NCBI RefSeq assembly: GCF_001701045.1
Contig: NZ_CP016757.1
Location: 1,357,501 to 1,421,500 of the forward strand
Direction of reading: 5' to 3'
DNA from: Cloacibacillus porcorum
GTDB taxonomy: Bacteria; Synergistota; Synergistia; Synergistales; Synergistaceae
Length of the DNA: 64,000 nucleotides
Part shown: positions 11,880 through 29,688 of the stretch, in pieces
How positions within the stretch are numbered: the first letter of the stretch is position 1
Layout: each line of letters starts with the position of its first letter
Made by a program: the position numbers and the translations under genes
The notes under the pieces: model-generated
The model's database searches: none
Told to the model about the DNA's origin: nothing
The model's input: only the letters and a program-made list of their open reading frames with translations

Positions 11880-11897
11880 GCATTCAAAGGTGCACAG
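11880..11897 (+). repeat. Putative crossover site, cassette 1
   Basis: GCATTCAAAGGTGCACAG, identical in all six cassettes. The left flank is AT-rich and ends ATATATA; the right flank is porin code. GCA and TGC surround the asymmetric octamer TTCAAAGG, a plausible recombinase core. Confidence 0.65.
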
Positions 11898-13211
11898 CCG
11901 GCTACACGTTACGAAATGGCGTCGGTAGTAGCGCGCGCTCTTGTAGCGGTAGACGCTGAAAAGGCCAGCAAGCAGGACCTCGAACTCCTCAAGAAGCTCG
12001 TCATGGAATTCAAAGACGAACTCGACGCCCTCGGCGTGAAGGTCGACAAAATCGACAAGCGCGTTGCCGTTCTTGAAGATCGTCTCGGCGGATGGAAACT
12101 CTCCGGAAGCTTCAAGTTCGACGCTAACTTCAGCAGCGACGACAACGATTGGTATAACGGAAATGGCGCAAGCACCGAATTCCACAAGGAATGGTTCGAC
12201 CTCACCTTCAGGAAGCAGATAGAGGAGAACACGTCACTCTACGCACGTCTCCGTATGGGACAGTACGTAGCGGGTACGGGCCGCGGCGACATCAGCGGAG
12301 CCGACACTCGTTGGGATCGTATCTTTGTTGACACGAAGCTCCCCTACAACATCGACCTCCGCGTTGGACGTTTCCTGCTTGACTTCGAAGGCGACAACGG
12401 GCTCTATTGGGAATATGACGCTAACCCGATCTACGGCAGCTATCGCGCAGACGGATTCCAGCTTCGTAAGGCGTGGAACAACTTCACCGCTACGGCTGTT
12501 ATCGGACGTAACTTCAGCGGCGGCTATGACTACACGAACAATGTTGGCGACTACATGGGTTATATCCTCGACCTCAACTGGAAGCCCAACGAGAAGTTCA
12601 TGCTTGGCGCGACCGGTTACTGGAATGTCGGCGACGCTGGTATAGCAGATGTTGACGATCTTGACGTAAATAATTACGCTATCTACGCCGGATTTAAGTT
12701 CACCCCGGCGATCGAACTCAAGGGTATCTACTACTTCCAGAATCTTGGCGATCAGTGGGCAGTAATGGAAGACAGCCCGAAGGCATGGAAAGCGGTCCTC
12801 GACGTGAAGCAGGAAGCTCTCAAGTTCACCAGCCTCTGGCTCCAGTACGAGCAGGTCGACAACTCCTTCATGGGACTCAACCAGCAGAACAACATGGACT
12901 GGGGTGTAGTTCCCTCAATCTCCGACAACAGGCCGATCGGTGCTGACAGCACAACGAAGCTTTGGATGGTCGGCGCGACTCAGCAGTGGAACGATAAGTG
13001 GAGCACATTCCTCAAGTACGCTCAGGCTGACTATGATGAGGACGTTCTTGATGACGCGAAGAACTACACGATCGGCGTGAACTACCAGTACACACCGGCG
13101 GTGGCCTTCCAGCTCACCTATGACCATATCGACTACGGTGACAACAATCCTCTCGGATTCTACAGCGGAGACAACCACGTGGTTAAGTTCCGTACGACAG
13201 TCAATTTCTAA
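11880..13211 (+). CDS. Silent 5'-truncated SLH porin, cassette 1
   Basis: An outer-membrane beta-barrel body lacking start codon, signal peptide and the first half of the SLH domain. The frame is open from the 18-bp site (codons AFKGAQPATRYEMASVV) to the stop, 443 residues, and would give a 498-residue porin if joined to the head at 21200. The order is end of SLH, coiled coil (KASKQDLELLKKLVMEFKDE), then barrel strands ending in VKFRTTVNF with a terminal Phe. The internal ATG at 11916 would give an unexported protein, so I do not treat it as a start. The first 60 bp differ from the other copies at several synonymous sites, so this cassette is the most diverged at its 5' edge. Confidence 0.8.
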   Translation, partial: AFKGAQPATRYEMASVVARALVAVDAEKASKQDLELLKKLVMEFKDELDALGVKVDKIDKRVAVLEDRLGGWKLSGSFKFDANFSSDDNDWYNGNGASTEFHKEWFDLTFRKQIEENTSLYARLRMGQYVAGTGRGDISGADTRWDRIFVDTKLPYNIDLRVGRFLLDFEGDNGLYWEYDANPIYGSYRADGFQLRKAWNNFTATAVIGRNFSGGYDYTNNVGDYMGYILDLNWKPNEKFMLGATGYWNVGDAGIADVDDLDVNNYAIYAGFKFTPAIELKGIYYFQNLGDQWAVMEDSPKAWKAVLDVKQEALKFTSLWLQYEQVDNSFMGLNQQNNMDWGVVPSISDNRPIGADSTTKLWMVGATQQWNDKWSTFLKYAQADYDEDVLDDAKNYTIGVNYQYTPAVAFQLTYDHIDYGDNNPLGFYSGDNHVVKFRTTVNF

Positions 13212-13227
13212 TCTGACTCAACACTTG

Positions 13228-13258
13228 AAACAGAGACCCGTAAGGGTCTCTGTTTTTT
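13228..13258 (+). terminator. Terminator after cassette-1 porin
   Basis: CAGAGACCC and GGGTCTCTG pair across GTAA and are followed by TTTTTT. All six porins have a closely related hairpin here, separating porin from partner gene. Confidence 0.85.
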
Positions 13259-13321
13259 ACGTCTTTTTACTTAATTCTTATGTTTAATTGGCAGAAGGCG
13301 GTATTTTTAATGAAAAATAAA

Positions 13322-13650
13322 TACGTTCTTTTGCTTAGGTCTTAAGGTTCATTTTATTTTACAGAATTATCAAATATTAATTGTTGATATTTTCCTCTAA
13401 AAGGAGGCGGTAATTTTAAGGAAGACATATTGCGTCTTTTTACTTAGGTCTTATGGTTCATTTTATTTTGAAGAGTTATTAAATATTGATTGTTGATATT
13501 CCCTCTTCAAAAGGAGGGGGTATTTTTAAGGAAAATTTAACACGTCTTTTTGCTTAGGCCTTATAGTTCGTCTTATTTCGCGGATTTATCAAATATAAAT
13601 CACCGATACTTAAAAACAGGAGGCAACAATTTTGAGGAGAAATATAATTG
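13322..13650 (+). repeat. Three tandem ~110-bp degenerate repeats upstream of partner 1
   Basis: Units start at about 13322, 13433 and 13543. Each has a CTTTTxxCTTAGGyCTTA segment, TTATTAAATATtratTG-like AT-rich sequence, then an AGGAGG-type ribosome site. The third copy is the functional leader of the gene at 13632. The first two keep the ribosome-site-like purine tract (AAAAGGAGGCGG, AAAAGGAGGGGG) but have no open frame after it. A partial fourth copy may lie around 13260-13320. They account for the unusually long 420-bp porin-partner gap in this cassette. Confidence 0.7.
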
Positions 13651-14393
13651 GGCTTTTGATGTTCGTCTGTCTGATCACCGCTTTTGCGGCCACAGCAAAT
13701 GCCGCAGCCACAGACCAGGTCCTTTCAAGATGGGAGAAAAAGACAAGGCTGCTTGACAGGGAGGACCAGGTTTCAAATCTCGAGATAAAGGCTACCTATT
13801 ATTCGACAGAGTATATCGAAGCTCTGGTGCAGAGCGAAGCTAATAAAAACCTCTGGACACAACAGGAGGCCGACGAATATAAATACCGGCTGCTGAATAC
13901 CCTGCATTTGGAAGAGATGATCCCTATCCGTATAGAGTTCATGAACAACGGACCCAGCATGCACCTTGGCCCCTTTGACGTCATGGCCAAGCTGATGATC
14001 GGCAGTAAAGAATATAAGATGGCCGATTACGACAAGAGGTTCAACTTCAGATTCCAGGGAGAAAAAGAGGGGCTCGTCTTCTTCAACAGATATGACGAGA
14101 AGACAGGAAAGGATCTCCTTAAAGGCGTAAAACAGGTAAAACTCATATTCTCGCCGACGATAAGCCCAATAACCGACGGCAGGCGTACGGAGTTTATTTG
14201 GGATATCGCAAATGACGATCCGAACAAACTCTTCCAGGGCAGGGCCGCCGCGAAGTATGAGACTGACCGTCTGCTGAAGCGTCTTGAAAAGCTGCGCGCT
14301 GATAAGGCGGAAGAGGCGAAGAAGATGGCGGCGATAGACAGCGAGATATCAACTATACAGGCAAGATTGGACGAACTGGCGGCGATTCAGTGA
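13632..14393 (+). CDS. Secreted porin-cassette partner protein, copy 1 (unknown function)
   Basis: A 253-residue member of a family found once after every porin in this locus. It has a signal peptide (MRRNIIGLLMFVCLITAFAA, cut near ANAA), a conserved globular core (YYSTEYIEAL, NLWTQQEADEYKYR, FMNNGPSMHLGPFDVM, DKRFNFRFQGEKEG, FIWDIANDDPNKLFQG), and a C-terminal coiled coil (LLKRLEKLRADKAEEAKK). I do not recognise the family. Periplasmic location is inferred. The start is TTG at 13632 with AGGAGG upstream; TTG is kept in five of the six copies. It is separated from the porin by a terminator, so it probably has its own promoter or relies on readthrough. Confidence 0.75.
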   Translation: MRRNIIGLLMFVCLITAFAATANAAATDQVLSRWEKKTRLLDREDQVSNLEIKATYYSTEYIEALVQSEANKNLWTQQEADEYKYRLLNTLHLEEMIPIRIEFMNNGPSMHLGPFDVMAKLMIGSKEYKMADYDKRFNFRFQGEKEGLVFFNRYDEKTGKDLLKGVKQVKLIFSPTISPITDGRRTEFIWDIANDDPNKLFQGRAAAKYETDRLLKRLEKLRADKAEEAKKMAAIDSEISTIQARLDELAAIQ

Positions 14394-14410
14394 TAGAACC
14401 ATCCCGGTAG

Positions 14411-14445: not shown

Positions 14446-14803
14446 ACCCTATTATATATAGAAGGTTTTATATCAAATATTTATCATAACAGTATCATCA
14501 AGATAAATTATGACGCGTCCATATTGTTTCTTCGTAGTGACAATAAATAAAACCTACCTTTATATATAGGTTATATATAGGTGCGCGCGAAAAATTTAAA
14601 GTAACCCATCTGAAAGAAATACAACAATAAACGAGGTATATGCTCTGCGGAATTATGGCAAAAAATATATCGTCCGTATAACTAATAAGCGCTAACAACA
14701 TAATTATAGAACATAATAGTTATTGTTATATACTAAAAGTAATTAAAATTAATTACTTAATGTATTTTTATATAATTTTATAAATACAAAATAAATATAT
14801 TTA
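14446..14803. other. AT-rich spacer before cassette 2
   Basis: No supported gene in about 358 bp. Composition is strongly A+T, ending in AAATAAATATATTTA directly against the 18-bp site. The left flank of cassette 1 shares AAATAAATATAT. An in-frame TAA upstream and lack of a start codon confirm that cassette 2 has no translation start here. Confidence 0.6.
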
Positions 14804-14821
14804 GCATTCAAAGGTGCACAG
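14804..14821 (+). repeat. Putative crossover site, cassette 2
   Basis: GCATTCAAAGGTGCACAG in direct orientation to the sites of cassettes 1 and 5 and the expression site. The segment from the cassette-1 site to here (about 2.9 kb) would leave as a circle if direct sites recombine. Confidence 0.65.
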
Positions 14822-16246
14822 CCCGCGACCCGTTATGAGATGGCCTCGGTAGTAGCGCGCGCCCTCGTAGCGGTAGACGCTGAAAAGGCCAGCAAGCAGG
14901 ACCTCGAACTCCTCAAGAAGCTCGTCATGGAATTCAAAGACGAACTCGACGCCCTCGGCGTGAAGGTCGACAAACTTGACAAGAGAGTAGCAGTCCTTGA
15001 AGACGGTATCGGCGGATGGAAAATTCGTGGAACGTTCCGCTTCGACGCTAAATTTGCTGGAGGCGACCACGATACTAATTACTACACGGCTAATGGTGCG
15101 GATAACGAATTCACAAAGAGCCAGTTCCGTCTCTTCCTCACAAAGCAGATAAGTGAGAACACTTATTTCTATGCTCAGTATCGCACGGGCAGCGATTCAG
15201 CGGGTAATAGTGATGGCCGTGGAGATCTCCAGCACATGCGTTGGTCACATCTCTATGTGAATACCAAGCTCCCCTATGACATCGATTTCCGCGTTGGACG
15301 TTTCGGAGTTGACTTTGAAAGTGACTACGGACTCTATACCGACAACGATGCTATCTTTGGCGACTTCCGTACAGATGGCTTTAGGCTCACCAAGAAGTGG
15401 AACACTTTTAAGGCGACAGCAATCGTAGGACGCAACGATAATTTTGGCAATGACTACGGAATGGACATCAATCGTGGCGAGGGTACATATATGACTTATG
15501 CTCTCGACCTCAACTGGCAGCCCAACGAAAAGCTTTTCGCCGGTGCGACAGGTTACTGGTTTAAGGCCGACTCGACAACCAGAAATGTGACCGAGAACGT
15601 AGTAGAAAATAACAAAGTAGTAGGCAAGAGTGTTGTAAAGTCAATAGATGGGGATTACGACATAGATATATATGGTCTCTATGCTGGATACAGCTTCACA
15701 CCGTCAATTCAGTTAAAGGGTATCTATTATTTCCAGAGCCTCGGAAGTGATGTAATGACTTACGGAGCTGTAAAGGCTGGGGATACGGAAGATAGCCCGA
15801 AGGCTTGGAAAGCAATCCTCGACATCAAACAGGACCTTCTCAAGTTCACAGGACTCTGGATCGAATACTCGCAGCAGGACAACACATTCCTCGGTTACGA
15901 AAACCGTTACTCGATCGGTGGCGGCGGCGGTAACTACGATTATGTCGGACGTAACATGGACTATGCCAATCCTTACGGGACCTCGAAGTGGTGGTTTGTG
16001 AAGGCCGACCAGAAATGGAACGACAAGTGGAGTAGCTTTGTTCGTTTCGCGAATGTCGACTACGATACAGATTATCTTGACGACGCGACAGAATGGGGTG
16101 TAGGTATTGGATATCAGTACACACCGGCTCTTTACTTTGAACTCGCTTACGACCAGGTCGACCACGGCGACACGAACCTTCTTGGTTTCGATGGAGCTAC
16201 AGGCAAAGACCACGTCGTACGCTTCCGTACAACAGTCAATTTCTAA
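14804..16246 (+). CDS. Silent 5'-truncated SLH porin, cassette 2
   Basis: An open porin body of 480 residues starting at the 18-bp site, without start codon or signal peptide. It is the longest body, predicting a 535-residue fusion to the head. The 5' block to GGWKIRG is nearly identical to the other copies. The barrel is most like cassette 6 (shared FRFDAKFA, FRLFLTKQISENTYFYAQYRTG, DYVGRNMDYANPYGTSKWW-type segments), with differences in presumed surface loops such as RNVTENVVENNKVVGKS. It ends VRFRTTVNF, a terminal-Phe outer-membrane signal. Confidence 0.8.
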   Translation, partial: AFKGAQPATRYEMASVVARALVAVDAEKASKQDLELLKKLVMEFKDELDALGVKVDKLDKRVAVLEDGIGGWKIRGTFRFDAKFAGGDHDTNYYTANGADNEFTKSQFRLFLTKQISENTYFYAQYRTGSDSAGNSDGRGDLQHMRWSHLYVNTKLPYDIDFRVGRFGVDFESDYGLYTDNDAIFGDFRTDGFRLTKKWNTFKATAIVGRNDNFGNDYGMDINRGEGTYMTYALDLNWQPNEKLFAGATGYWFKADSTTRNVTENVVENNKVVGKSVVKSIDGDYDIDIYGLYAGYSFTPSIQLKGIYYFQSLGSDVMTYGAVKAGDTEDSPKAWKAILDIKQDLLKFTGLWIEYSQQDNTFLGYENRYSIGGGGGNYDYVGRNMDYANPYGTSKWWFVKADQKWNDKWSSFVRFANVDYDTDYLDDATEWGVGIGYQYTPALYFELAYDQVDHGDTNLLGFDGATGKDHVVRFRTTVNF

Positions 16247-16263: not shown

Positions 16264-16296
16264 AAAAATAGAGACCCGTACGGGTCTCTATTTTTT
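16264..16296 (+). terminator. Terminator after cassette-2 porin
   Basis: A fully symmetric TAGAGACCCGT/ACGGGTCTCTA hairpin (16269-16290) followed by TTTTTT. Confidence 0.85.
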
Positions 16297-16387
16297 AAGC
16301 GAGCGAGTTTTATATCCTTTATTCATTCTTCTCTATTTTATTCTCGTCTTTATTACAAAGAATATCACTGAATTGGAGGCATTCAAT

Positions 16388-17146
16388 TTGAAAAAATTCA
16401 CATCACTATTGATTCTTCTCACAGCGCTCTTGATTTATCCCAGCGTTGTCCCTGCTTCTTGCGCAGCAACATTTGCCCAAGTACTTCAGCGCTGGACAAA
16501 ATCGACAAAGGTTATAGACGAAGATGGCGGCAATCTAGAAATTAGAGCCACTTACTATTCCTCCGAGTTTATAGAAGCTCTCGTACAGAAAGAGGCTAAA
16601 GACAATCTATGGACTCAGCAGGAAATGGAGGATTATAAATATAAATTTCTTGGTAGTCTAAGGCTTGACGAAATGATACCAATACAGGTGGAGTTTATCA
16701 ATAACGGCCCAACAATGCACATGGGGCCCTTTGATATAATGGTAAAGCTCAGAATAAAAAATAAAGCGTATAAACCTGTCGATTACGATAAACGTTTTAA
16801 CTTTCAATTTCAGGGTAAAAAAGAGGGATTAATATTTTTTCCCAGATATGACGAAAAAACTGGACAAGAGCTGTTAAAAGACGCTAAAAACGTAAGGCTA
16901 GAATTTGTATCCGCAATAAGCCCAATGTTGGAGGGTGCAGACATTACATTTATCTGGGATATCGCCCGCGACGATCCGCAGGCACTATATAAAGGTGCGA
17001 CGGCAAATAAACTCGAAACGGACCGCCTGCTCAAGCGTCTTGAAAAGTTACGCAAGGACAAAGCAGATGAAGAAACAAAATTATCTACTATTAACAGCGA
17101 AATTGCCACGATTCAAACACGTTTGGACGAACTAGCTAAGCAATAG
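16388..17146 (+). CDS. Secreted porin-cassette partner protein, copy 2
   Basis: About 252 residues, with TTG start at 16388 placed 8-9 bp after TTGGAGG. An in-frame TTG at 16373 overlaps the ribosome site and is unlikely. Signal peptide region KKFTSLLILLTALLIYPSVV ends near ASCAAT. The conserved core includes YYSSEFIEALVQKEAKDNLW, FINNGPTMHMGPFDIMVKL and FIWDIARDDPQALYKG. A Lys/Glu-rich coiled coil closes it. Its closest relative in the locus is copy 6, matching the porin pairing of cassettes 2 and 6. Confidence 0.75.
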   Translation: MKKFTSLLILLTALLIYPSVVPASCAATFAQVLQRWTKSTKVIDEDGGNLEIRATYYSSEFIEALVQKEAKDNLWTQQEMEDYKYKFLGSLRLDEMIPIQVEFINNGPTMHMGPFDIMVKLRIKNKAYKPVDYDKRFNFQFQGKKEGLIFFPRYDEKTGQELLKDAKNVRLEFVSAISPMLEGADITFIWDIARDDPQALYKGATANKLETDRLLKRLEKLRKDKADEETKLSTINSEIATIQTRLDELAKQ

Positions 17147-17235: not shown

Positions 17236-17997
17236 CTATTGTTCAGCAAGCTCATCCAAACGGTTTTGGATAGTTGATATCTCGTCGTTGATGGCCTTTA
17301 ACTTGGCCTCTTCTTCGGCTTTGTCCTTGCGCAGTTTCTCTAAGCGCTTCAGCAGACGGTCAGTCTCGACACGGGCCGCGGTCTTTCCCTGGTAGAGCTT
17401 TTGCGGGTCGTCGTTGGAGACATCCCAGAGAAATTTCGTCGGCTGGCCCTTTGTGATCGTCGGTGCGATAGCGCTGCGAAGTTCCAGGGTAACGGTCTTT
17501 ACGCCTTCCAACAGATCTTTGCCGGTCTTTTCATCGTAGCGTGGAAAGTAGACGAGCCCCTCCTTCTTGCCCTGAAATTTGAAGTTGAGGCGTTTGTCAT
17601 AATCTACCGGCTTGTAGCTCTTGTTTTTTATTATTAATTTGACCATGATATCAAACGGCCCCATGTGCATCGTTTCAGCGTTGTTGTTGAACTCTAGCTG
17701 TATCGGTATCATCTCGTCCAGCTTCAAGGCGCTGAGGAACTTATATTTATAGTCGTCCGCCTCCTGCTGTGTCCAGAGGTTCGCCTCAGCCTCTTTCTGA
17801 ATATATGCCTCAATAAACTCCGCGGAGTAATAGGTTGCATTTATCTCCAGATTGCTGAGTTTGTCTTCGCCAGTATATTTACGTGACTTTGTCCACCGGT
17901 CGAGTACCTGTCCGAAGGTATCTGCGTTGGCAAAAGAGATTGCTATGAGACTCAAAAGCGCCGCCATAAGCAAAATCGGTACGAAATTTTTTCTCAA
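17236..17997 (-). CDS. Secreted porin-cassette partner protein, copy 3
   Basis: 253 residues with TTG start at 17997 and GGAGG 7-10 bp upstream. A signal peptide (MRKNFVPILLMAALLSLIAI, cut after FANA) is followed by the conserved core (NATYYSAEFIEAYIQKEAEA, FNNNAETMHMGPFDIM, FLWDVSNDDPQKLYQG) and a coiled coil with AINDEISTIQNRLDEL. It is nearly identical to copy 4 at 22898, including the leader region (GCTTTATAAAGC...), so cassettes 3 and 4 form a large inverted repeat. Confidence 0.75.
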   Translation of the reverse strand: MRKNFVPILLMAALLSLIAISFANADTFGQVLDRWTKSRKYTGEDKLSNLEINATYYSAEFIEAYIQKEAEANLWTQQEADDYKYKFLSALKLDEMIPIQLEFNNNAETMHMGPFDIMVKLIIKNKSYKPVDYDKRLNFKFQGKKEGLVYFPRYDEKTGKDLLEGVKTVTLELRSAIAPTITKGQPTKFLWDVSNDDPQKLYQGKTAARVETDRLLKRLEKLRKDKAEEEAKLKAINDEISTIQNRLDELAEQ

Positions 17998-18144: not shown

Positions 18145-19539
18145 TTAGAAATTGATCGCTGTACGGAACTGGAATACGTGATCTTTGTCGTTCTTGAATC
18201 CAGCAAGGTTATCGCTTCCGTAGTCGACCTGATCATAGGCAAGGCGGAAAGCAATGGCCGGTGTGTACTGATACGTTACACCAGCGCCGTAACCCTTTGC
18301 ATCGTCAAGACCGTCGGTGTCAAAGTCAGCCTGCTGGTAACGGAGGTAGCTGCTCCACTTATCGTTCCACTTCTGGGTGGCATAGATAAAGAAGAGCTTT
18401 GAAGTGCCGTCGTTCCAGGGCATATTGTCAGAAATCGACGCTGCCTTAGCAGAATCAACGCCGAAGCTATAAGGATCGCGTACACCGGCGAAGGTGTTGT
18501 CCTGCTGCATGTACTCAAAGCGAATGCCGGTAAACTTCAGGAGATCCTGACCAAGGTCAAGTGTTGCTCTCCATGCCTGCGGGCTATCCTCCGTTACATT
18601 ACCTGTAGTTTGGCGATCAAGATATCCATAACGGACTACATCAGAACCAAGATCCTGGAAGTAATATGTTCCCTGGAGAGTGATTGCTGGTGTGAAGCTG
18701 TAAGAGGCATAAACACTGTAAGTGTTGATGTCAAGATCTGCATCCGACCATGCTTCATCGCCATCTTCCTGCATCCATACACCGTTAACTCCGGCAAAGA
18801 ACTTCTCGTTTGGCTGCCAGGTAAGGTCAAGAGCATAGTTCATGTAAGAATCAGTGATGTCAGCTAAAAACTCATCACCATTTTCCACAGGATTGCTGTA
18901 ATCGGTATTACGTCCTATAACTGCCTTCGCAGCAAAAGAGCCCCAATTCTTCGTGAACTGGAAACCGTCTACACGGTAGTCTCCGAAGATCGCATCGTTG
19001 TCAACATAGAGACCGTGGTCGCCTTCAAAGTCAAGGAAGAAACGTCCTACGCGGTAGCCCACACCATAGGGAAGTTCAGTGTCAACATATACCTGGCGAA
19101 GATTTAGCCAACCAGCGTCACCATGTCCAGGTCTTCCACCTGAGGATTCAGAACCAGCGCGGAACTGGGCGTAAAAGCTGGTAGTATCGCTGATCTGCTT
19201 CTGAAGGGTAAGACGAATTCGGTCTTTCTGGAAATCTGTGTCGTTATTACCTTCTGTGTAGGAGCTGTGAGCCTGATCCCCACCGGCGAAGTTGGCGTCA
19301 AACCAGAACTGTCCGGAGAGTTTCCATCCGCCGAGGTTCTCTTCAAGAACGGCAACGCGCTTGTCGATTTTGTCGACCTTCACGCCGAGGGCGTCGAGTT
19401 CGTCTTTGAATTCCATGACGAGCTTCTTGAGGAGTTCGAGGTCCTGCTTGCTGGCCTTTTCAGCGTCTACCGCTACGAGGGCGCGCGCTACTACCGAGGC
19501 CATCTCATAACGGGTCGCGGTCTGTGCACCTTTGAATGC
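18145..19539 (-). CDS. Silent 5'-truncated SLH porin, cassette 3 (inverted, next to recombinase)
   Basis: An open body of 464 residues reading leftward from the 18-bp site, without start or signal peptide; joining to the head would give 519 residues. The barrel closely matches the expressed cassette (shared GQFWFDANFAGGDQ, GVGYRVGRFFLDFEGDHGLY, NDAIFGDYRVDGFQFTK), with changes in loop-like segments. It ends FQFRTAINF. It faces away from the expression head, and the two 18-bp sites are in inverted orientation with the recombinase gene between. It is therefore the natural first partner for inversion. Confidence 0.8.
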   Translation of the reverse strand, partial: AFKGAQTATRYEMASVVARALVAVDAEKASKQDLELLKKLVMEFKDELDALGVKVDKIDKRVAVLEENLGGWKLSGQFWFDANFAGGDQAHSSYTEGNNDTDFQKDRIRLTLQKQISDTTSFYAQFRAGSESSGGRPGHGDAGWLNLRQVYVDTELPYGVGYRVGRFFLDFEGDHGLYVDNDAIFGDYRVDGFQFTKNWGSFAAKAVIGRNTDYSNPVENGDEFLADITDSYMNYALDLTWQPNEKFFAGVNGVWMQEDGDEAWSDADLDINTYSVYASYSFTPAITLQGTYYFQDLGSDVVRYGYLDRQTTGNVTEDSPQAWRATLDLGQDLLKFTGIRFEYMQQDNTFAGVRDPYSFGVDSAKAASISDNMPWNDGTSKLFFIYATQKWNDKWSSYLRYQQADFDTDGLDDAKGYGAGVTYQYTPAIAFRLAYDQVDYGSDNLAGFKNDKDHVFQFRTAINF

Positions 19540-19553
19540 ACAGCTCCGCGTGC
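19522..19553 (-). repeat. Putative crossover site, cassette 3, with extended palindrome
   Basis: The 18-bp site lies at 19522-19539. Only here does the left flank also match, giving CTGTGCA-CCTTTGAA-TGCACAG on the plus strand: seven-base perfect arms around an eight-base spacer. CGCGG and CCGCG lie further out, with one extra base on one side. Such arm-spacer-arm geometry is typical of tyrosine-recombinase core sites. Confidence 0.65.
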
Positions 19554-19610
19554 AATAATCAGTGTTGTTTCAAAGTTTTTTTAAATGTGTAACAAATGGG
19601 TAATTAGTGA

Positions 19611-21199: not shown

Positions 21200-22750
21200 A
21201 TGAAAAAGTTTATGGCAGTACTCGCAATGGTTGCCGTAGTAGCGTTCGCCGCTCCGGCACTCGCAGCAACAAACCCGTTCATGGATGTACCCCAGGGCCA
21301 TTGGGCCTATGATGCAGTAGGTCTCCTCGCTTCCCGCGGAATCGTATCAGGATATCCTGATGGCGCATTCAAAGGTGCACAGCCCGCGACCCGTTATGAA
21401 ATGGCCTCGGTAGTAGCGCGTGCCCTCGTAGCGGTAGACGCTGAAAAGGCCAGCAAGCAGGACCTCGAACTCCTCAAGAAGCTCGTCATGGAATTCAAAG
21501 ACGAACTCGACGCCCTCGGCGTGAAGGTCGACAAAATCGACAAGCGCGTTGCCGTTCTTGAAGATCGTCTCGGCGGATGGAAACTCTCCGGACAGTTCTG
21601 GTTTGACGCCAACTTCGCCGGTGGAGATCAGGATTTCAGCTCCTACACATCAAACGGACTCGACACAGACTTTGAGAAAGACCGTTTCCGTCTGACGCTT
21701 ACAAAGCAGATCAGCGAAACGACGAGCTTCTACGCCCAGTTCCGCGCCGGTTCCGAAGCTTCGGGCGGCAAGAGCGGTTACGGTGACGTTGATGGATTCA
21801 ATATCCGTCAGGTCTATGTCGACACAGTGCTTCCCTATGGCGTTGGCTACCGTGTAGGACGTTTCTTCCTCGACTTTGAAGGCGACCATGGTCTCTATGT
21901 AGACAACGATGCGATCTTCGGCGACTATCGTGTAGACGGTTTCCAGTTCACAAAGAGCTGGGGTACGTTCTCAGCGAAGGCTGTTGTCGGTCGTAACACA
22001 TTCAGTGGCGCATACAAAGGCCCTGGTTATGTCATTGATAAGGATGGCGCTATCGATCTGAGCACTGGAAATCTCGGAGACACGAGCTATATGCACTATG
22101 CCCTCGACCTCACATGGCAGCCCAATGAGAAGTTCTTCATCGGCGCCAACGGAGTCTGGGTCAAAGAAGACGGTGATATAGCGGAGCTCGAAGATACTGA
22201 CTTCAACACCTACAGCATCTATGCCTCCTACAACTTCACACCGGCGATTGCCCTTCAGGGAACCTATTACTTCCAGGATCTTGACGAGGGTATAGCGGCT
22301 GGCTATGAAGACAGCCCGAAGGCGTGGAGAGCTACACTTGACGTCCGTCAGGAAGCCCTTAAGTTCACCGGACTTCGCTTTGAATACCAGCAGCAGGATA
22401 ATACCTTCAATGGTGTAAGAGATCCTTACAGCTTCGGCGTTGATTCAGCGAACGCGGCGTCAATCTCACAGAACATGCCTTGGAATGACGGTACTTCGAA
22501 ACTCTTCTTCATCTATGCCGACCAGAAATGGAACGACAAGTGGAGCAGCTACCTCCGTTATCAGCAGGCTGATTTCGACACCGAAGGTCTTGACGATGCG
22601 AAAGGCTATGGAGTTGGCGTAACTTATCAGTACACTCCGGCAGTTGCTTTCCGTCTCGCCTATGACCAGGTTGACTACGGCGATGGTATCGCTCAGGAAT
22701 ACAACGGCAAGGATCACGTGTTCCAGTTCCGTACAGCGATCAATTTCTAA
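21200..22750 (+). CDS. Expressed SLH-domain outer-membrane porin (cassette 4 joined to the head)
   Basis: The only complete porin here, 516 residues. Signal peptide MKKFMAVLAMVAVVAFAAPA, cut after ALA near residue 22; SLH domain about 25-75 (FMDVPQGHWAYDAVGLLAS, GYPDGAFKGAQPATRYEMAS); coiled coil about 76-122 (KASKQDLELLKKLVMEFKDE, VDKIDKRVAVLEDRLGG); then a beta-barrel ending FQFRTAINF. SLH porins of this type tether the outer membrane to peptidoglycan-linked polymer and form channels. The head is exactly 55 codons (21200-21364) before the 18-bp site, which lies in the codons for AFKGAQ of the SLH domain. Which cassette occupies this position is predicted to vary. Confidence 0.93.
   Translation: MKKFMAVLAMVAVVAFAAPALAATNPFMDVPQGHWAYDAVGLLASRGIVSGYPDGAFKGAQPATRYEMASVVARALVAVDAEKASKQDLELLKKLVMEFKDELDALGVKVDKIDKRVAVLEDRLGGWKLSGQFWFDANFAGGDQDFSSYTSNGLDTDFEKDRFRLTLTKQISETTSFYAQFRAGSEASGGKSGYGDVDGFNIRQVYVDTVLPYGVGYRVGRFFLDFEGDHGLYVDNDAIFGDYRVDGFQFTKSWGTFSAKAVVGRNTFSGAYKGPGYVIDKDGAIDLSTGNLGDTSYMHYALDLTWQPNEKFFIGANGVWVKEDGDIAELEDTDFNTYSIYASYNFTPAIALQGTYYFQDLDEGIAAGYEDSPKAWRATLDVRQEALKFTGLRFEYQQQDNTFNGVRDPYSFGVDSANAASISQNMPWNDGTSKLFFIYADQKWNDKWSSYLRYQQADFDTEGLDDAKGYGVGVTYQYTPAVAFRLAYDQVDYGDGIAQEYNGKDHVFQFRTAINF
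21365..21382 (+). repeat. Putative crossover site at the expression locus
   Basis: GCATTCAAAGGTGCACAG within the SLH coding sequence, preceded by CCTGATGGC of the head. Inverted relative to the cassette 3 and 6 sites, direct relative to those of cassettes 1, 2 and 5. Confidence 0.65.
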
Positions 22751-22787: not shown

Positions 22788-22816
22788 AAAACAGAGGCCT
22801 TCGGGCCTCTGTTTTG
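22788..22816 (+). terminator. Terminator after the expressed porin
   Basis: ACAGAGGCC and GGCCTCTGT pair across TTCG and are followed by TTTT. Confidence 0.88.
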
Positions 22817-22897
22817 TTAAGAACTTCATGTTCTAGTTTCTAATCTATTTCATCCGGCTTTATAAAGCAAAACAAATCAGACTGGAGGAAAACTCTT

Positions 22898-23659
22898 TTG
22901 AGAAAAAAATTAGTACCGATTTTGCTTATGGCGACGCTTTTGAGTCTAATAGCAATCTCTTTTGCCAACGCAGATACCTTTGGACAGGTACTCGACCGGT
23001 GGACAAAGTCACGTAAATATATTGGAGAAGATAAACTCAGCAATCTGGAGATAAAAGCAACCTATTACTCTGCGGAGTTTATCGAGGCATATATTCAGAA
23101 AGAGGCTGAGGCGAACCTGTGGACACAACAGGAGGCTGACGACTATAAATACAAGTTTCTCAGCGCTCTCAAGCTGGATGAAATGATCCCCATTCAGATA
23201 GAATTCAACAACAACGCAGAAACAATGTACATGGGACCATTCGATATAATGGCTAAATTAACGATAAAAAATAAAGCCTACAAACCGGTGGACTATGATA
23301 AACGGCTGAATTTTAAGTTTCAGGGCAAGAAAGAGGGGCTCGTATACTTCCCACGCTATGATGAAAAGACAGGTAAAGATCTCCTAGAAGGGGTAAAGAC
23401 CGTTACCCTGGAACTCCGCAGTGCCATCGCACCAACAATTACAAAGGGACAGCCTATAAAATTTCTCTGGGATGTATCCAACGACGACCCGCAAAAACTC
23501 TACCAGGGAAAGACCGCCGCACGTGTAGAGACTGACCGTCTGCTGAAACGTTTAGAGAAACTGCGCAAGGACAAGGCCGAAGAAGAGGCCAAGTTAAAGG
23601 CCATCAATGATGAGATATCAACTATCCAAAACCGTTTGGATGAACTTGCTAAGCAATAA
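22898..23659 (+). CDS. Secreted porin-cassette partner protein, copy 4 (downstream of expressed porin)
   Basis: 253 residues, TTG start at 22898 with GGAGG upstream. It has a signal peptide (MRKKLVPILLMATLLSLIAI, cut after FANA), the family core and a coiled coil. It differs from copy 3 at only a scatter of positions, for example LEIKATYY against LEINATYY and TMYMGPF against TMHMGPF. Position after the expressed porin and its terminator suggests weak coupled or independent expression. Function unknown; binding of the porin's periplasmic coiled coil is a guess based on the shared coiled-coil character. Confidence 0.75.
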   Translation: MRKKLVPILLMATLLSLIAISFANADTFGQVLDRWTKSRKYIGEDKLSNLEIKATYYSAEFIEAYIQKEAEANLWTQQEADDYKYKFLSALKLDEMIPIQIEFNNNAETMYMGPFDIMAKLTIKNKAYKPVDYDKRLNFKFQGKKEGLVYFPRYDEKTGKDLLEGVKTVTLELRSAIAPTITKGQPIKFLWDVSNDDPQKLYQGKTAARVETDRLLKRLEKLRKDKAEEEAKLKAINDEISTIQNRLDELAKQ

Positions 23660-24930: not shown

Positions 24931-25162
24931 AAGAACACCTCTTTTATGATAGTAATTAGTATCAATATATATCAGTATAACGTAACCTGTTTATTTTACA
25001 ATGATGGAAAAGTGACGATTTGAATATTCGCTCTGTGTAATAAATCATAAAAAATATATTTTAGTAGAGATTAAAATGTATAAAATACATACAATAGATT
25101 AGCAAAAAAGAAATCTATAAGATAATTTTTTATACAATAAGAATAGTTTTAATAATCATTTA
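24931..25162. other. AT-rich spacer before cassette 5
   Basis: No gene seen. Contains the TGTGTAATAAATC motif (25034-25046) and runs of A/T up to TCATTTA at the 18-bp site. Confidence 0.5.
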
Positions 25163-25180
25163 GCATTCAAAGGTGCACAG
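25163..25180 (+). repeat. Putative crossover site, cassette 5
   Basis: GCATTCAAAGGTGCACAG, direct orientation relative to the expression site 3.8 kb upstream. Recombination would excise cassette 4 plus the Fic gene and join the head to cassette 5. Confidence 0.65.
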
Positions 25181-26434
25181 CCCGCGACCCGTTATGAAAT
25201 GGCCTCGGTAGTAGCGCGCGCCCTCGTAGCGGTAGACGCTGAAAAGGCCAGCAAGCAGGACCTCGAACTCCTCAAGAAGCTCGTCATGGAATTCAAAGAC
25301 GAACTCGACGCCCTCGGCGTGAAGGTCGACAAAATCGACAAGCGCGTTGCCGTGCTTGAGAAGAATCTTGGCGGTTGGAAGCTCAGCGGACAGATATACT
25401 TCGATGCGAACTTCACTGATTATGACAGCGCTCCCGATGATGACAGAAGCTTTAAGTTTGGCCGTCTGCGTTTCTTCCTTGGCAAACAGATCGATGAAAA
25501 TACGTCGCTGTTAGTTCGTATAAACGCAGCTGACGGGAGCTTCACATGGGATCGTGCTTATGTCGATACAAAACTTCCCTATGATGTCAATTTCCGTTTT
25601 GGACGTTTCAACTTTGACTGGGAAGGCGATCTTGGCCTGTATGATCCTTACACTGTCAACAACGACGCCACCTTTGGCGACTGGGATGTCGATGGCTTCC
25701 AGTTTGCTAAGACATGGGGTATGTTTAATGTGACAGGTATCGTCGGTCGTAATGCTGGTATCGAGTATAATGATGACATCGTTACAGAAGGCGATGACAA
25801 TACCCATATGACTTATGCTCTTAAGATTGGTGCAAACGGCGAGAAATGGATGCTTGGTGCTATGGGCTATTGGTGGAATGCTGACAATCTCAACGCACTT
25901 GTTGACGTCAATACCTATGGTATTTATGCTGGCTATAACTTTACACCGGCAGTCCAGCTGAAGGGTGTTTACTACTTCCAGGATCTCGATCCTGGTTTCA
26001 GCTTTGATGGCGATGATCCTAAGTCATGGAAAGCCATTCTCGATGTGAAACAGGATCTCCTCAAGTTCACCTCACTCTGGATTGAATACGCACAGCAGGA
26101 CAATACGTTCTTTGGAACAAATTCCTATCAGTATCTTGGTGCCAACGAAATGAACAACCAGCCGTTCAATACCGGTACCGCGAAGATATTCAACATCATC
26201 GCTGACCAGCAGTGGAACGACAAGTTCAGTACCTATCTGCGTTATTGGCAGGCTGACTGGGATACAAACGGCATCGACGACACGAAGAACTGGACCGTTG
26301 GCGTAAGATATCAGTACACACCCGCCATTCAGTTCAAGCTTGAATACGACAGCGTTGACTACGGCGATGGCGCCTTCCAGGAATACAACGGCAAAGACAA
26401 TATCTTCCGTTTCCGCACAACAGTCAACTTCTAA
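25163..26434 (+). CDS. Silent 5'-truncated SLH porin, cassette 5
   Basis: An open body of 423 residues from the 18-bp site, the shortest of the six, predicting a 478-residue fusion. The shared 5' block runs through VDKIDKRVAVLEKNLGGWKL, then a distinct barrel (SGQIYFDANFTDYDSAPDDD, LPYDVNFRFGRFNFDWEGDL). It ends FRFRTTVNF. No start codon or signal peptide; the internal ATG at 25199 would give a non-exported product. Confidence 0.8.
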   Translation, partial: AFKGAQPATRYEMASVVARALVAVDAEKASKQDLELLKKLVMEFKDELDALGVKVDKIDKRVAVLEKNLGGWKLSGQIYFDANFTDYDSAPDDDRSFKFGRLRFFLGKQIDENTSLLVRINAADGSFTWDRAYVDTKLPYDVNFRFGRFNFDWEGDLGLYDPYTVNNDATFGDWDVDGFQFAKTWGMFNVTGIVGRNAGIEYNDDIVTEGDDNTHMTYALKIGANGEKWMLGAMGYWWNADNLNALVDVNTYGIYAGYNFTPAVQLKGVYYFQDLDPGFSFDGDDPKSWKAILDVKQDLLKFTSLWIEYAQQDNTFFGTNSYQYLGANEMNNQPFNTGTAKIFNIIADQQWNDKFSTYLRYWQADWDTNGIDDTKNWTVGVRYQYTPAIQFKLEYDSVDYGDGAFQEYNGKDNIFRFRTTVNF

Positions 26435-26450: not shown

Positions 26451-26482
26451 AAAACGGAGCCCCGAAAGGGGCTCTGTTTTTT
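26451..26482 (+). terminator. Terminator after cassette-5 porin
   Basis: ACGGAGCCCC and GGGGCTCTGT pair (one mismatch) across GAAA, followed by TTTTTT. Confidence 0.85.
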
Positions 26483-26567: not shown

Positions 26568-27317
26568 ATGAAGAAAATATCTTTACTTGTAGCCTCCCTC
26601 TTGCTGCTTATGGCTATGCCGCTTACAGCAAACGCCGATGCTTTTGACCAGGTGATGCAGAGATGGACGAAAAAGCAGCTATTCCAGAGTGATATGGACG
26701 GCAATCTGGCGGTCAAAGCTATTTACTATTCCGCCGAATATATGGAGGCCTATATTCAGTCAGAGGCGAAAAAGAATCTTTGGACGGAATCAGAGACAGA
26801 GGACTTTAAATACAAGTTCCTCACGGCACTGAATCTTAACGAGACTATCCCCATCTATATCGAGTTTGTAAATAACGGTCCGACTATGCATCTTGGCCCA
26901 TTTGATAATATGGTCAGTCTCAGGATAAAGAACAAAACATATAAACCGATCGAATATGACAAGCGCTTCAACTTTGGTTTTCAGGGACAGAAGGACGGTC
27001 TTGTCTTTTTTCCCAGGTATGATGTCAAGACAGGCAAGGATTTACTTGAAGGTGTAAAGTCCGTTCGCCTGGAATTCAAGCCGGCGATAAGCCCAATATT
27101 GGATGGCAAGGCCCCCTTTTATATCTGGGATATAGCAAAAGACGATCCAGACAAGTTGTATCAGGGCTCTACAGCAGCTCGCATGGAGACTGACCGCCTG
27201 ATCAAACGCCTTGAGCGCCTTCGTAAAGATAAAGCTGATGAAGAATCTAAGCTGGCATCTATCAACAGCGAAATTGCCACAATCCAAGCACGTTTGGATG
27301 AACTTGCTAAACAATAA
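26568..27317 (+). CDS. Secreted porin-cassette partner protein, copy 5
   Basis: 249 residues and the only copy with an ATG start, 26568, with AAAGGAG upstream. Signal peptide MKKISLLVASLLLLMAMPLT, cut after NADA or TANA. Core segments match the family (IYYSAEYMEAYIQSEAKKNL, FVNNGPTMHLGPFDNMVSL, YIWDIAKDDPDKLYQG), ending in a coiled coil. It is the most divergent copy, consistent with its unpaired porin. Confidence 0.75.
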   Translation: MKKISLLVASLLLLMAMPLTANADAFDQVMQRWTKKQLFQSDMDGNLAVKAIYYSAEYMEAYIQSEAKKNLWTESETEDFKYKFLTALNLNETIPIYIEFVNNGPTMHLGPFDNMVSLRIKNKTYKPIEYDKRFNFGFQGQKDGLVFFPRYDVKTGKDLLEGVKSVRLEFKPAISPILDGKAPFYIWDIAKDDPDKLYQGSTAARMETDRLIKRLERLRKDKADEESKLASINSEIATIQARLDELAKQ

Positions 27318-27331
27318 GATAAATACATAAT

Positions 27332-27371
27332 AAAACAGTCCCGGCGCATAAATTCGCCGGGACTGTTTTTA
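27332..27371. terminator. Bidirectional terminator between convergent cassettes 5 and 6
   Basis: AAACAGTCCCGGCG and CGCCGGGACTGTTT form a 14-pair stem with an 8-base loop and T/A-runs on either side. Confidence 0.92.
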
Positions 27372-27408
27372 TGGTCTAATTTCAGTATAACGTATACGTT
27401 ACTTGTCT

Positions 27409-28170
27409 TTATTGTCTTGCTAACTCATCCAAACGGTTTTGGATAGTTGAGATCTCATCATTGATGGCCTTTAACTTGGCCTCTTCTTCTGCCTTGTCCT
27501 TGCGCAGCTTCTCAAGGCGCTTCAGCAGACGGTCTGTCTCAAGCTTATTGGCGGCTGCGCCTTTGTACAAAGCCTGCGGATCGTCCCTAGCAATATCCCA
27601 GATGAAGCTGATATTCCGGCCTTCGAGTATGGGGCTTATAGCCGGTACAAATTCTATGCTCACATTTTTAACACCCTTTAATAAATCTTTTCCCGTTTTT
27701 TCATCAAACCTTGGGAAAAATACCAGCCCCTCTTTCTTCCCCTGGAACTTAAAGTTGAAGCGACGGTCATAATCTACCGGTTTATAGGTCTTGCCAGCAA
27801 TCCGCAGCTTTACCATTATGTCGAAGGGGCCAAGGAACATCGTTGGTCCGTTGTTTATAAACTCTATCTGTATAGGGATAAGTTCGTCCAGTTTAAGGCT
27901 AGAGAGAAACTTATACTTGTAATCATCCGCCTCCTGCTGAGTCCACAGGTTGTCTTTAGCCTCTTTCTGAACAAGAGCCTCTATGAACTCTGCAGAATAA
28001 TACGTAGCTCTGACCTCAAGATTAGCGCCATCCTCGTCTACTATCTTACGAGATTTTGTCCAGCGTTGAAGTACCTGGTCAAAAGTATCGGCAAAAGAGG
28101 GAGCTGTCAAGGTACTTAAGTTACCAAAAAGCAAACCAAGGATTATCAGCAGTGTCGTGAGTTTTTTCAA
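27409..28170 (-). CDS. Secreted porin-cassette partner protein, copy 6
   Basis: 253 residues with TTG start at 28170 and TGGAGG upstream. Signal peptide MKKLTTLLIILGLLFGNLST, cut near PSFA. The N-terminal two thirds resemble copy 2. The 3' end of the gene (AINDEISTIQNRLDEL) is almost base-identical to copies 3 and 4, so the coding sequence looks mosaic. Confidence 0.75.
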   Translation of the reverse strand: MKKLTTLLIILGLLFGNLSTLTAPSFADTFDQVLQRWTKSRKIVDEDGANLEVRATYYSAEFIEALVQKEAKDNLWTQQEADDYKYKFLSSLKLDELIPIQIEFINNGPTMFLGPFDIMVKLRIAGKTYKPVDYDRRFNFKFQGKKEGLVFFPRFDEKTGKDLLKGVKNVSIEFVPAISPILEGRNISFIWDIARDDPQALYKGAAANKLETDRLLKRLEKLRKDKAEEEAKLKAINDEISTIQNRLDELARQ

Positions 28171-28252
28171 TTAAATGCCTCCATTTGAGAGATTTTTTAT
28201 AAAGAAGTAATAAATAAAAGATGAAGAAGCCGATATGTAAAAGCATTCTTAG

Positions 28253-28284
28253 AAAAACAGAGACCCTTTCGGGTCTCTGTTTTG
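28253..28284 (-). terminator. Terminator after cassette-6 porin
   Basis: AAACAGAGACCC and GGGTCTCTGTTT pair across TTTC. Confidence 0.85.
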
Positions 28285-28299
28285 AGTTAAGCTGCTAGC

Positions 28300-29688
28300 T
28301 TAGAAGCTGACGTTGGTACGGAAGCGGATAACGTGATCTTTACCCTGTGCGGCTGTTGTTCCGCTAAGGAAGGAATTATCGCCGTGATCAACCTGATCGT
28401 AGGCAAGTTCAAAGTAGAGAGCCGGTGTGTACTGATAGCCAACACCAAGACCCCACTCCGTAGCGTCGTCGAGCCAGTCTGTGTCGTAGTCAACATTCGC
28501 AAAGCGGACAAAGCTGCTCCACTTGTCGTTCCATTTCTGGTCGGCCTTCACAAACCACCACTTGGAAGTTCCGAAAGGATTTGAGAAGTCCATGTTTCTT
28601 CCAACATAGTCATACGCACCGCCGCCGATTGAATAGCGATTTGTCAGACCGAGATACGTATTATCCTGCTGTGAGTATTCGATCCAGAGTCCTGTGAACT
28701 TGAGGAGATCCTGTTTGATGTCGAGGATGGCTTTCCATGCCTTCGGGCTATCCTCTGTCATACCGGCAGTTAAACCAGTATATGTGGGAACATCAGAGCC
28801 GAGCTTCTGGAAGTAGTAAATCCCCTTCAGTTCGACTGTGGGGGTGAACTTATAACCAGCGTAGATGCCGTAGTTCTGGATTCCGAGGTCACCAGCGGTA
28901 TCCGCTGTCGAGTCGTCGTCGAACCAATAACCGCTCGCGCCAAGCATAAACTTCTCGTTAGGCTGCCAGTTGAGATCGAGGATATAGCTCATGAAGCTTC
29001 CGTTTTTACCATCAGAAAGGACAATATAATCATCGCCGAAGTTGTCGTTACGTCCAATGGCAGCCGTAGCTTTAAAAGTATTCCACTTTTTGCTAGCCTG
29101 GAAGCCGTCCGTACGGAAGTCACCAAAGATGGCATCGTTGTCAATGTAGAGTCCATAATCGCCTTCAAAGTCAACTGCGAAACGTCCAACGCGGAAGTCG
29201 ATGTCATAGGGAAGCTTTGTGTTCACGAACATATGTGACCAGCGCATATGCTGCGTATCGCCACGCCCACCATTAGCAGAATTACCTGCCCCGTCAGCGC
29301 CTGTACGGTACTGAGCGTAGAAGTAGGTATTCTCACTGATCTGCTTTGTGAGGAACAGACGGAAACGCTCTTTTTCAAAGTCATTCTTTTTGTTGCTCTC
29401 GTTGAAGTAGTACATACCATTGTCGGTATCGTTGGCAAACTTAGCATCAAAGCGGAAATTACCACGAATTTTCCATCCGCCGATACCATCTTCAAGGACT
29501 GCTACTCTCTTGTCAAGTTTGTCGACCTTCACGCCGAGGGCATCGAGTTCGTCTTTGAATTCCATGACGAGCTTCTTGAGGAGTTCGAGATCCTGCTTGC
29601 TGGCCTTTTCAGCGTCTACCGCTACGAGGGCGCGCGCTACTACCGACGCCATCTCATAACGGGTCGCGGGCTGTGCACCTTTGAATGC
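28300..29688 (-). CDS. Silent 5'-truncated SLH porin, cassette 6 (inverted)
   Basis: An open body of 462 residues reading leftward from the 18-bp site; a head fusion would be 517 residues. The barrel is cassette-2-like (GGWKIRGNFRFDAKFAND, FRLFLTKQISENTYFYAQYRTG, HMRWSHMFVNTKLPYDIDFR) and ends IRFRTNVSF. There is no start or signal peptide. It is inverted relative to the expression site, so inversion of 21365-29688 would bring this body next to the head. Confidence 0.8.
   Translation of the reverse strand, partial: AFKGAQPATRYEMASVVARALVAVDAEKASKQDLELLKKLVMEFKDELDALGVKVDKLDKRVAVLEDGIGGWKIRGNFRFDAKFANDTDNGMYYFNESNKKNDFEKERFRLFLTKQISENTYFYAQYRTGADGAGNSANGGRGDTQHMRWSHMFVNTKLPYDIDFRVGRFAVDFEGDYGLYIDNDAIFGDFRTDGFQASKKWNTFKATAAIGRNDNFGDDYIVLSDGKNGSFMSYILDLNWQPNEKFMLGASGYWFDDDSTADTAGDLGIQNYGIYAGYKFTPTVELKGIYYFQKLGSDVPTYTGLTAGMTEDSPKAWKAILDIKQDLLKFTGLWIEYSQQDNTYLGLTNRYSIGGGAYDYVGRNMDFSNPFGTSKWWFVKADQKWNDKWSSFVRFANVDYDTDWLDDATEWGLGVGYQYTPALYFELAYDQVDHGDNSFLSGTTAAQGKDHVIRFRTNVSF
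29671..29688 (-). repeat. Putative crossover site, cassette 6
   Basis: GCATTCAAAGGTGCACAG on the minus strand, flanked on its left side by AT-rich CTTATTTA. It marks the right edge of the locus. The stretch from 29689 to the Rrf2 promoter is AT-rich with no supported gene. Confidence 0.65.

Follow-up and report, generated by a model that had tools for sequence, protein, structure and literature searches.

We propose that the gut-type bacterium Cloacibacillus porcorum (phylum Synergistota) switches an outer-membrane porin of the SLH-anchored OmpM type by DNA inversion at a multi-cassette locus. We hold this to be very probable from sequence evidence alone; no inversion has been observed in a clone, and no reads were available. 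The core of the proposal, already made in an earlier sequence-only reading of this DNA, is that one expression head and a set of silent cassettes are exchanged at a common site. It is supported by differing head–body joins at two syntenic loci of one genus, a conserved integrase tied to the locus, selection, homogenised site alleles, and arm-type repeats.

The window (the whole 64,000-nucleotide stretch analysed) contains six exact copies of an 18-bp site, GCATTCAAAGGTGCACAG, against 0.05 expected from shuffling, and no further copy with up to two mismatches was found in the complete 3.59-Mb genome. Each copy is the start of an SLH-porin body, and their orientations in locus order are +,+,-,+,+,-, with every copy where the sequence-only reading had placed it (Table 1). 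An ATG, a signal peptide, and the first SLH half precede only the copy at 21365, which bears out the claim of a sole complete head. The other five bodies have intact reading frames, but an in-frame stop lies 12–54 nt before the site and no start codon intervenes; that these headless cassettes are silent is our inference. Heads for them elsewhere, which would have refuted the earlier reading, were not found in the complete genome, nor was a seventh copy of the porin body. Behind every body, as had been claimed, stands a strong intrinsic terminator, and beyond it an intact gene for a signal-peptide protein of ~250 aa with its own ribosome-binding site. The 5′ leader of the head retains ~80% nucleotide identity even to a species lacking the integrase, and it had no above-threshold Rfam match to a known RNA element.

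Table 1. Features of the porin locus, in window coordinates. Ranks are those of arm-type sites scored with a matrix from other genomes.
Feature	Position	Strand	Remark
Cassette 1 arm-type repeat pair, upstream of core	11739..11760	+	rank 3; second repeat at -128
Silent cassette 1 (site 11880-11897 + headless porin body)	11880..13211	+	orthologue head-joined in G001
Partner gene 1	13632..14393	+	
Cassette 2 arm-type repeat pair, upstream of core	14662..14683	+	rank 11; degenerate
Silent cassette 2 (site 14804-14821 + headless porin body)	14804..16246	+	
Partner gene 2	16373..17146	+	
Partner gene 3	17236..17997	-	
Silent cassette 3 (site 19522-19539 + headless porin body)	18145..19539	-	adjoins integrase 3′ end
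Integrase-side core site	19522..19543	-	dyad symmetry CTGTGCA-TTCAAAGG-TGCACAG
Minimal invertible segment (integrase gene + head)	19540..21364	.	1,825 bp; bounded by inverted 18-bp sites
Cassette 3 arm-type repeat pair, between core and integrase stop	19584..19605	+	rank 6; orientation opposite relative to body
Tyrosine integrase	19611..20771	-	Arm-DNA-bind_3 + Phage_integrase domains
Arm-type repeat pair directly upstream of integrase start	20788..20809	+	rank 2
Head 5′ leader	20946..21199	+	conserved; promoter presumed within or just upstream
Expression head (start codon, signal peptide, first SLH half)	21200..21364	+	55 codons; 165 nt
18-bp recombination site, head copy (cassette 4)	21365..21382	+	
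Porin body 4	21365..22750	+	head-joined in this assembly
Cassette 4 intrinsic terminator, separating porin body from partner gene	22790..22818	+	
Partner gene 4	22898..23659	+	secreted, ~253 aa; beta-rich domain + C-terminal helix
Single arm-type repeat TGTGTAAT	25034..25041	+	-129 from cassette 5 core
Silent cassette 5 (site 25163-25180 + headless porin body)	25163..26434	+	
Partner gene 5	26568..27317	+	
Partner gene 6	27409..28170	-	
Silent cassette 6 (site 29671-29688 + headless porin body)	28300..29688	-	
Cassette 6 arm-type repeat pair, upstream of core	29809..29830	-	rank 1; -140/-129
Equivalent terminators, other cassettes	13229-13258, 16267-16296, 18077-18105, 26453-26482, 28252-28281	+, +, -, +, -	

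Because the integrase gene and the head lie between inverted sites (19539 on the minus strand and 21365 on the plus strand), the segment between them is the minimal invertible unit. The same integrase–head module between paired inverted sites occurs in G001 (1,836 bp), G020 (1,835 bp), G014, G010, and G007, and most relatives keep the dyad centre of the core at their integrase-side sites. Enumerating the arrangements accessible by inversion only gave 320, with any cassette reached in at most two steps; for cassettes 1, 2, and 5, two inversions suffice without loss of DNA. Cassettes 1 and 2 had been predicted to be reached after a prior inversion; the excision predicted for cassette 5 is merely one route, because two lossless inversions also lead there. 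Pairing of directly repeated sites could excise a cassette, a cost that the model must tolerate. Reversibility within a clone remains inferred.

The R-H-R-Y region of the integrase is intact (GIRKGTL, HCLRHDF, MTQRYAH). Its reading frame is open back to 20879, and the start at 20771 is inferred from conservation. A dN/dS of 0.05 indicates strong purifying selection. Orthologues are present in seven genomes, including six relatives, and all seven sit at this porin locus and site; they score 636–732 bits, and the next best match scores 354. At twenty-five loci of other related integrases, no porin lies close by. By this linkage the enzyme qualifies as a dedicated site-specific recombinase, and by its arm-binding domain, R-H-R-Y catalytic domain, and arm-type direct repeats near the core it qualifies as arm-binding (P4/lambda-like), though there are no binding data.

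The arm-type repeats, TGTGTAAC in pairs spaced by 11 bp, are found at about -140 and -129 bp, upstream of silent cores, in three genera, and more of them lie beside and upstream of the integrase gene. Eight of eleven silent flanks carry a repeat at -131 to -127 (0.019 expected), and these flanks are AT-rich and otherwise dissimilar. A matrix derived exclusively from other genomes, applied to ~128,000 positions of the window, put three arm sites of the locus at ranks 1–3. The repeats are degenerate in cassettes 2 and 5 and on the integrase side of G001; none were found at G010 or at the cassette flanks of G007, and there is none near the head-side site. The pair just upstream of the integrase start may be an arm site, an autoregulatory operator, or both.

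Switching would then proceed as follows. The integrase would bind the core at the 18-bp site within the SLH codons, its N-terminal domain contacting the arm repeats in the left flanks, and would recombine the site of the head with that of another cassette. The head (promoter, start codon, signal peptide, and first SLH half) would move in frame onto a different body, and the old body would gain the incoming silent or integrase-side flank and fall silent. Sites in opposite orientation would give inversions, two of which in succession would reach every cassette. The SLH/coiled-coil tether would stay constant while the barrel, chiefly its extracellular loops, changed, and the downstream partner gene would travel along with the body. 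With moderate confidence, we further suggest that a domesticated lambda/P4-like, arm-site-dependent integrase acts here as a multi-target shuffler. We propose such intasome-like switching of a Synergistota tether porin because each silent cassette appears to carry its own attachment-site flank, with arm repeats ~130–140 bp from the core and an AT-rich spacer.

In the best-placed alternative, switching is the work of RecA-dependent homologous recombination across the conserved 5′ ends (~170 bp) of the bodies, and the integrase is incidental. The ~150 bp after the site are 92–99% identical among the six bodies and are homogenised within each genome, so homologous recombination or gene conversion very probably also acts at this locus. 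As the agent of switching, however, RecA alone seems improbable: it leaves aside an integrase kept at the locus under strong purifying selection in seven genomes, with its clade nowhere else, an 18-bp stretch that is invariant while the following 42 bp are less conserved, and arm repeats held at a fixed core distance in unlike flanks. Catalysis by the integrase, itself an inference, is favoured over RecA recombination because of the arm-type repeats at both the silent cores and the integrase gene.

We compared the locus with related genomes, using one genome per species. At the syntenic locus of the same-genus genome G001, the head leads into the cassette 1 orthologue (83% nucleotide identity over 1,397) with its partner, and the orthologue of cassette 4, the expressed cassette of the window, is headless on the integrase side. 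Permuted order in relatives had been suggested as a check, and the head–body join does differ between these two syntenic loci of one genus; alternative joins are thus found between species, not within a clone. On the tree of bodies, head state changed nine times for nine headed rows, the maximum possible (shuffled mean 6.8), and in three cross-species pairs of orthologues, each with strong support, one member is headed and the other headless. One row (G014_c17end) lies at a contig end, where the silent state is unproven, and the nine changes remain without its label. Site alleles are homogenised within genomes and differ between them. G001 is not a clean one-head system, since its head-joined body is frameshifted by +1 C and heads are also present on two further full-length copies.

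One complete gene beside partial silent copies, with a 5′ part homogenised within the genome, is also what a gene-conversion reservoir would leave, the five headless bodies overwriting the expressed one without inversion (pilS/msp2 style). We think this very unlikely. Because G001 joins the head to a whole cassette, body and partner together, while the cassette 4 orthologue persists headless, the change is better read as reciprocal rearrangement than as overwriting, and the bodies form clear cross-species orthologue pairs on the tree. Even less credible is a dead switch, a relic of old duplications and rearrangement with decaying silent bodies. Functional data are lacking and one G001 head-joined copy is frameshifted, but all five silent bodies are intact, the bodies (silent copies included) show dN/dS of 0.06–0.11 against their orthologues, the integrase is constrained as described above, and the six sites of the window are perfectly identical. 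An integrated mobile element with its attachment site in a porin gene by chance deserves equally little credence, and we rejected the idea that the integrase belongs to an integrated phage or plasmid: its arm-binding domain and arm/core architecture do resemble those of integrative elements, from which it plausibly descends, but its segment is flanked by inverted rather than direct sites, no element genes lie alongside, and close relatives were absent from viral contigs (best 36% over a segment), phages (31%), and plasmids (none).

The product of the proposed switch has the defining parts of an OmpM-type SLH porin: a signal peptide, an SLH domain, a coiled coil, and a C-terminal beta-barrel of at least sixteen strands (eighteen predicted, with moderate confidence). 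Its sequence matches 8bys, 8bym, and 7zgx, and its structural match is OmpM1. Variation among the bodies is 0.66 in long loops, 0.21 in turns, and 0.01 in the tether, so that, on the predicted topology, the differences are concentrated in extracellular loops. The sequence-only reading held that porin and partner vary together. They are indeed inherited largely as a unit; that a partner is silenced along with its porin has not been shown, given the terminator before it and its own ribosome-binding site, and co-expression is inferred. The partner matched no Pfam family, and a fold search returned only one weak match, to a protein of unknown function.

Full-text searches of the open-licence literature found no published description of an SLH-porin switch in Synergistota, in line with the earlier supposition, and none of an arm-site, intasome-like mechanism in antigenic-variation systems. 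The nearest report is an SRA survey with inversion signatures in one of two Synergistetes species (PMC5903667). OmpM-type SLH porins have been proposed as an ancestral outer-membrane tether and, in several Gram-negative groups, as the main nutrient channels (PMC10628300). If our reading is true, a Synergistota lineage swaps the whole barrel on a constant tether, and even a structural, tether-type porin is under programmed variation. Such variation would presumably counter phages or host immunity; its purpose, whether phage, immune, or substrate adaptation, is inferred. Site-specific antigenic variation would gain one more phylum, and an arm-binding integrase, normally an enzyme of mobile elements, would be acting as a reversible, many-target DNA shuffler.

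The locus had been called shufflon-like, which holds as an analogy only. The R64 shufflon likewise has a tyrosine recombinase, Rci, and several sites of mixed orientation; these are sfx sites, at which the 3′ ends of a single gene are shuffled. In the present locus, by contrast, a 5′ head is switched between complete bodies: complete silent bodies join one fixed N-terminal head, and the recombinase combines Phage_integrase with Arm-DNA-bind_3, so the defining features of an Rci shufflon are not met. Campylobacter fetus sap also concerns a surface-layer-related protein, with a promoter-bearing invertible segment flanked by homologous cassettes, and exchanges complete cassettes by RecA-dependent homologous recombination. 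At the present locus a ~170-bp 5′ homology exists, but so do an 18-bp core and a dedicated integrase with arm-type repeats, which differ from sap. Dichelobacter nodosus omp1 likewise combines an outer-membrane protein, several structural genes, and head inversion; it belongs to another protein family, and we know of no arm-binding integrase there. The SLH porins Veillonella OmpM1 and Deinococcus SlpA share the SLH domain, coiled-coil stalk, and C-terminal barrel; the OmpM1 paper, which reports several paralogues, makes no mention of phase variation. In having one expression locus and silent cassettes that share a short common junction site, the locus resembles vsa, vpma, and omp1. Mycoplasma agalactiae vpma (Xer1) also has a single expression site and silent genes, and needs a tyrosine recombinase to switch (PMC2268961), but its site lies upstream of the start codons and whole genes are switched, whereas the site at the present locus falls within the coding sequence. 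Closer than the Rci shufflon is Mycoplasma pulmonis vsa (HvsR tyrosine recombinase), in which the 3′ body of a silent gene acquires, by inversion, a promoter, a ribosome-binding site, and a 5′ coding head, with the recombinase gene in the vicinity (PMC2268961). That system varies a lipoprotein of a wall-less bacterium through a 714-nt head; here the head is 165 nt, the protein is an SLH-tethered Gram-negative porin, an arm-binding integrase lies inside the invertible segment, and each cassette has a partner gene. Site-specific antigenic-variation switches are themselves known; what would be new is an arm-site integrase shuffling an OmpM-type porin.

The 18-bp site GCATTCAAAGGTGCACAG is present in six exact copies in the window with orientations +,+,-,+,+,-, as the sequence-only reading had proposed, and no other copy with up to two mismatches was found in the whole 3,585,187-bp single-contig genome. 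A porin body of 423-480 codons starts at every copy (6/6), and a whole-genome protein search recovered no seventh body. The earlier claim of a single head also held. Only the body at 21365 is preceded by one (55 codons encoding a signal peptide and the first half of the SLH domain), while in each of the five headless bodies the frame is closed by a stop 12-54 nt before the site and no start codon intervenes. Behind all six bodies we found the strong intrinsic terminator and secreted-protein gene already described, the latter an intact ~250-aa partner gene with a signal peptide and its own ribosome-binding site. At the nucleotide level, the ~250-nt head leader is about 80 per cent conserved even in a species without the integrase. 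This unusual conservation suggests a regulatory 5' leader, though only from sequence, and no Rfam match above threshold was found in it.

The sites of cassettes 3 and 4 are inverted relative to each other and bracket both the head and a gene for a tyrosine integrase (Phage_integrase, Arm-DNA-bind_3). The bracketed 1,825-bp segment is therefore an invertible unit, whose two states would put the head on body 4 or body 3. Enumerating inversions, the head reaches all six bodies in at most two steps with no DNA lost, and 320 arrangements are possible. Orthologues of the integrase in six other Synergistota genomes are 52-86% identical to it and occupy the same position at a porin site (6/6); in most of these genomes the head is on the integrase's other side, between paired inverted sites. 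The seven orthologues scored 636-732 bits, compared with 354 or less for the next best integrases across 188 genomes of the phylum, and no porin was near the latter at the 25 loci examined. The DNA separating cassettes 4 and 5 holds a Fic-domain gene, and a 40% identical one is among the cassettes of the relative G014. In the relative G007, the head-integrase segment is enlarged by what appear by eye to be two toxin-antitoxin gene pairs and a ~200-aa protein resembling NYN-domain proteins; these genes would ride on the invertible unit.

The flanks upstream of headless sites contain TGTGTAACnnnTGTGTAAC, repeated directly every 11 bp. These arm-type repeats fall at roughly -140 and -129 relative to the core in silent cassettes, and they are present in window cassettes 1, 5, and 6, weakly in 2, and in every G014 and G029 cassette whose flank is long enough. 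Those on the integrase side have the opposite orientation and lie at about -66/-55 in the window, G020, G014, and G029, and at -81/-70 in G007. A further pair sits just before the integrase start in the window, G001 (same genus), G020, and G014; the window pair is about 17 bp ahead of the inferred start codon and might double as an operator for integrase autoregulation. Eight of eleven silent flanks had a match at -131 to -127, versus 0.019 expected from dinucleotide shuffles (maximum 1 in 1,000). These flanks are not all independent, as some from G014 are related to one another over their whole length; those of the window and G029 are otherwise dissimilar. An arm-site matrix trained on other genomes only ranked the cassette 6 flank, integrase-start, and cassette 1 flank pairs first to third of ~128,000 window positions, with the integrase-side pair sixth and the cassette 2 pair eleventh. 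Rank four is an arm-like pair between convergent partner genes 5 and 6, away from any core. Genome-wide, the two-repeat pattern is not unique (eleven matches versus five for a reversed control), and four of the eleven are in this locus. Dyad symmetry of the core has the same centre in five of seven integrase-side sites and is tied in a sixth. The arm-binding domain, fixed arm repeats, and core argue for the integrase as the recombinase, its catalysis being inferred; the AT-rich arm-core spacer would suit DNA bending.

Head-body joins differ between species, the only level at which they could be compared without reads or another isolate of the species; the assemblies of several relatives are fragmented, with contigs ending at the sites. 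G001 has the locus at the same place, between flanks collinear with the window (~85% nt). Its head, 100% identical in protein, continues into the counterpart of window cassette 1, an orthologue with 83% nt identity across 1,397 bases, and the cassette 1 partner is also there (79%). Cassette 4, head-joined in the window, has a headless orthologue on the G001 integrase side (86% aa). Two further headed copies in G001, away from the integrase, have other site alleles. Three supported orthologue pairs between the two species have opposite head states (C1/G001-head, C4/G001-int, C2/G001-far). On a maximum-likelihood body tree built without the conserved first 60 residues, the nine headed rows require nine changes of head state, as many as are possible (shuffled mean 6.8). 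In every case the homology of a headless to a headed copy starts at the left edge of the site, whose alleles are nearly uniform inside each recombining set and differ between genomes. The ~150 bp downstream is homogenised within genomes, so homologous exchange very probably acts as well. A +1 C frameshift relative to other copies truncates the G001 head-joined protein at 120 aa, which could reflect either an off state or an error in sequencing. Transposase-like ORFs, seen by eye, separate the G001 left flank from its first porin copy, where the window has cassette 1.

Coordinates of locus features and alleles of the 18-bp site
Feature	Genome or locus	Position (strand)	Sequence
Invertible unit	window	19540-21364	
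Repeat pair before integrase start	window	20788-20809	
Leader of head	window	20946-21199	
Fic-domain gene	window	23764-24930 (-)	
Arm-like pair, rank 4	window	27371-27392 (+)	
Left flank collinear with G001	window	3418-11726	
Right flank collinear with G001	window	from 29869	
Transposase-like ORFs (by eye)	G001 L060	9892-12564	
Frameshift	G001 L060	about 19136	
Fic gene	G014 L067	3228-4391	
Enlarged head-integrase segment	G007 L071	775-3425	
Site allele	window		AAAGGTGCACAG
Site allele	G001 integrase pair		AAGGGTGCACAG
Site allele	G014		AAGGGTGCCCAG
Site allele	G007		AAAGGTGCCCAG

Cassettes 1 and 2, silent in the window, have dN/dS of 0.11 and 0.06 against their headed G001 orthologues; in the comparison with G001, cassette 4 gave 0.10 and the integrase 0.05. 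The ratios are approximate because synonymous divergence is high. Judged from these alignments, selection clearly keeps the integrase and bodies intact.

The encoded protein is an OmpM-type SLH porin: its sequence matches those of OmpM1 from Veillonella and SlpA from Deinococcus, and a moderate-confidence model (pLDDT 73.5) matches OmpM1 in structure. The six bodies hardly differ in the SLH remainder and coiled coil (mean pairwise difference 0.01); they differ more in short (periplasmic) turns (0.21) and strands (0.41), and most in long (extracellular) loops (0.66), where nearly all length differences sit. Switching would thus alter surface and pore while retaining the peptidoglycan tether. 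The partner has a confidently predicted beta-rich fold with a C-terminal helix and no recognised relatives. Distances among the bodies parallel those among their partners (Mantel r 0.85, 0 of 5,000), imperfectly: the G001-far body is nearest C2 and its partner nearest C6. Co-expression by terminator read-through remains plausible and is not shown.

We found no published description of such a porin switch in the open-licence papers searched. The sequence-only reading had named the shufflon and C. fetus sap as nearest analogies; strictly speaking, the locus is no shufflon. Its mode is that of M. pulmonis vsa, and D. nodosus omp1 and C. fetus sap work in like manner. In vsa, a promoter-bearing head with the 5' coding part is relocated to silent 3' bodies (PMC2268961). 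Unlike these systems, the present locus belongs to the Synergistota, switches an OmpM-type porin, has a partner gene in each cassette, and carries an arm-binding integrase inside the invertible unit, with silent flanks that contain arm-type repeats (weak at two window cassettes).
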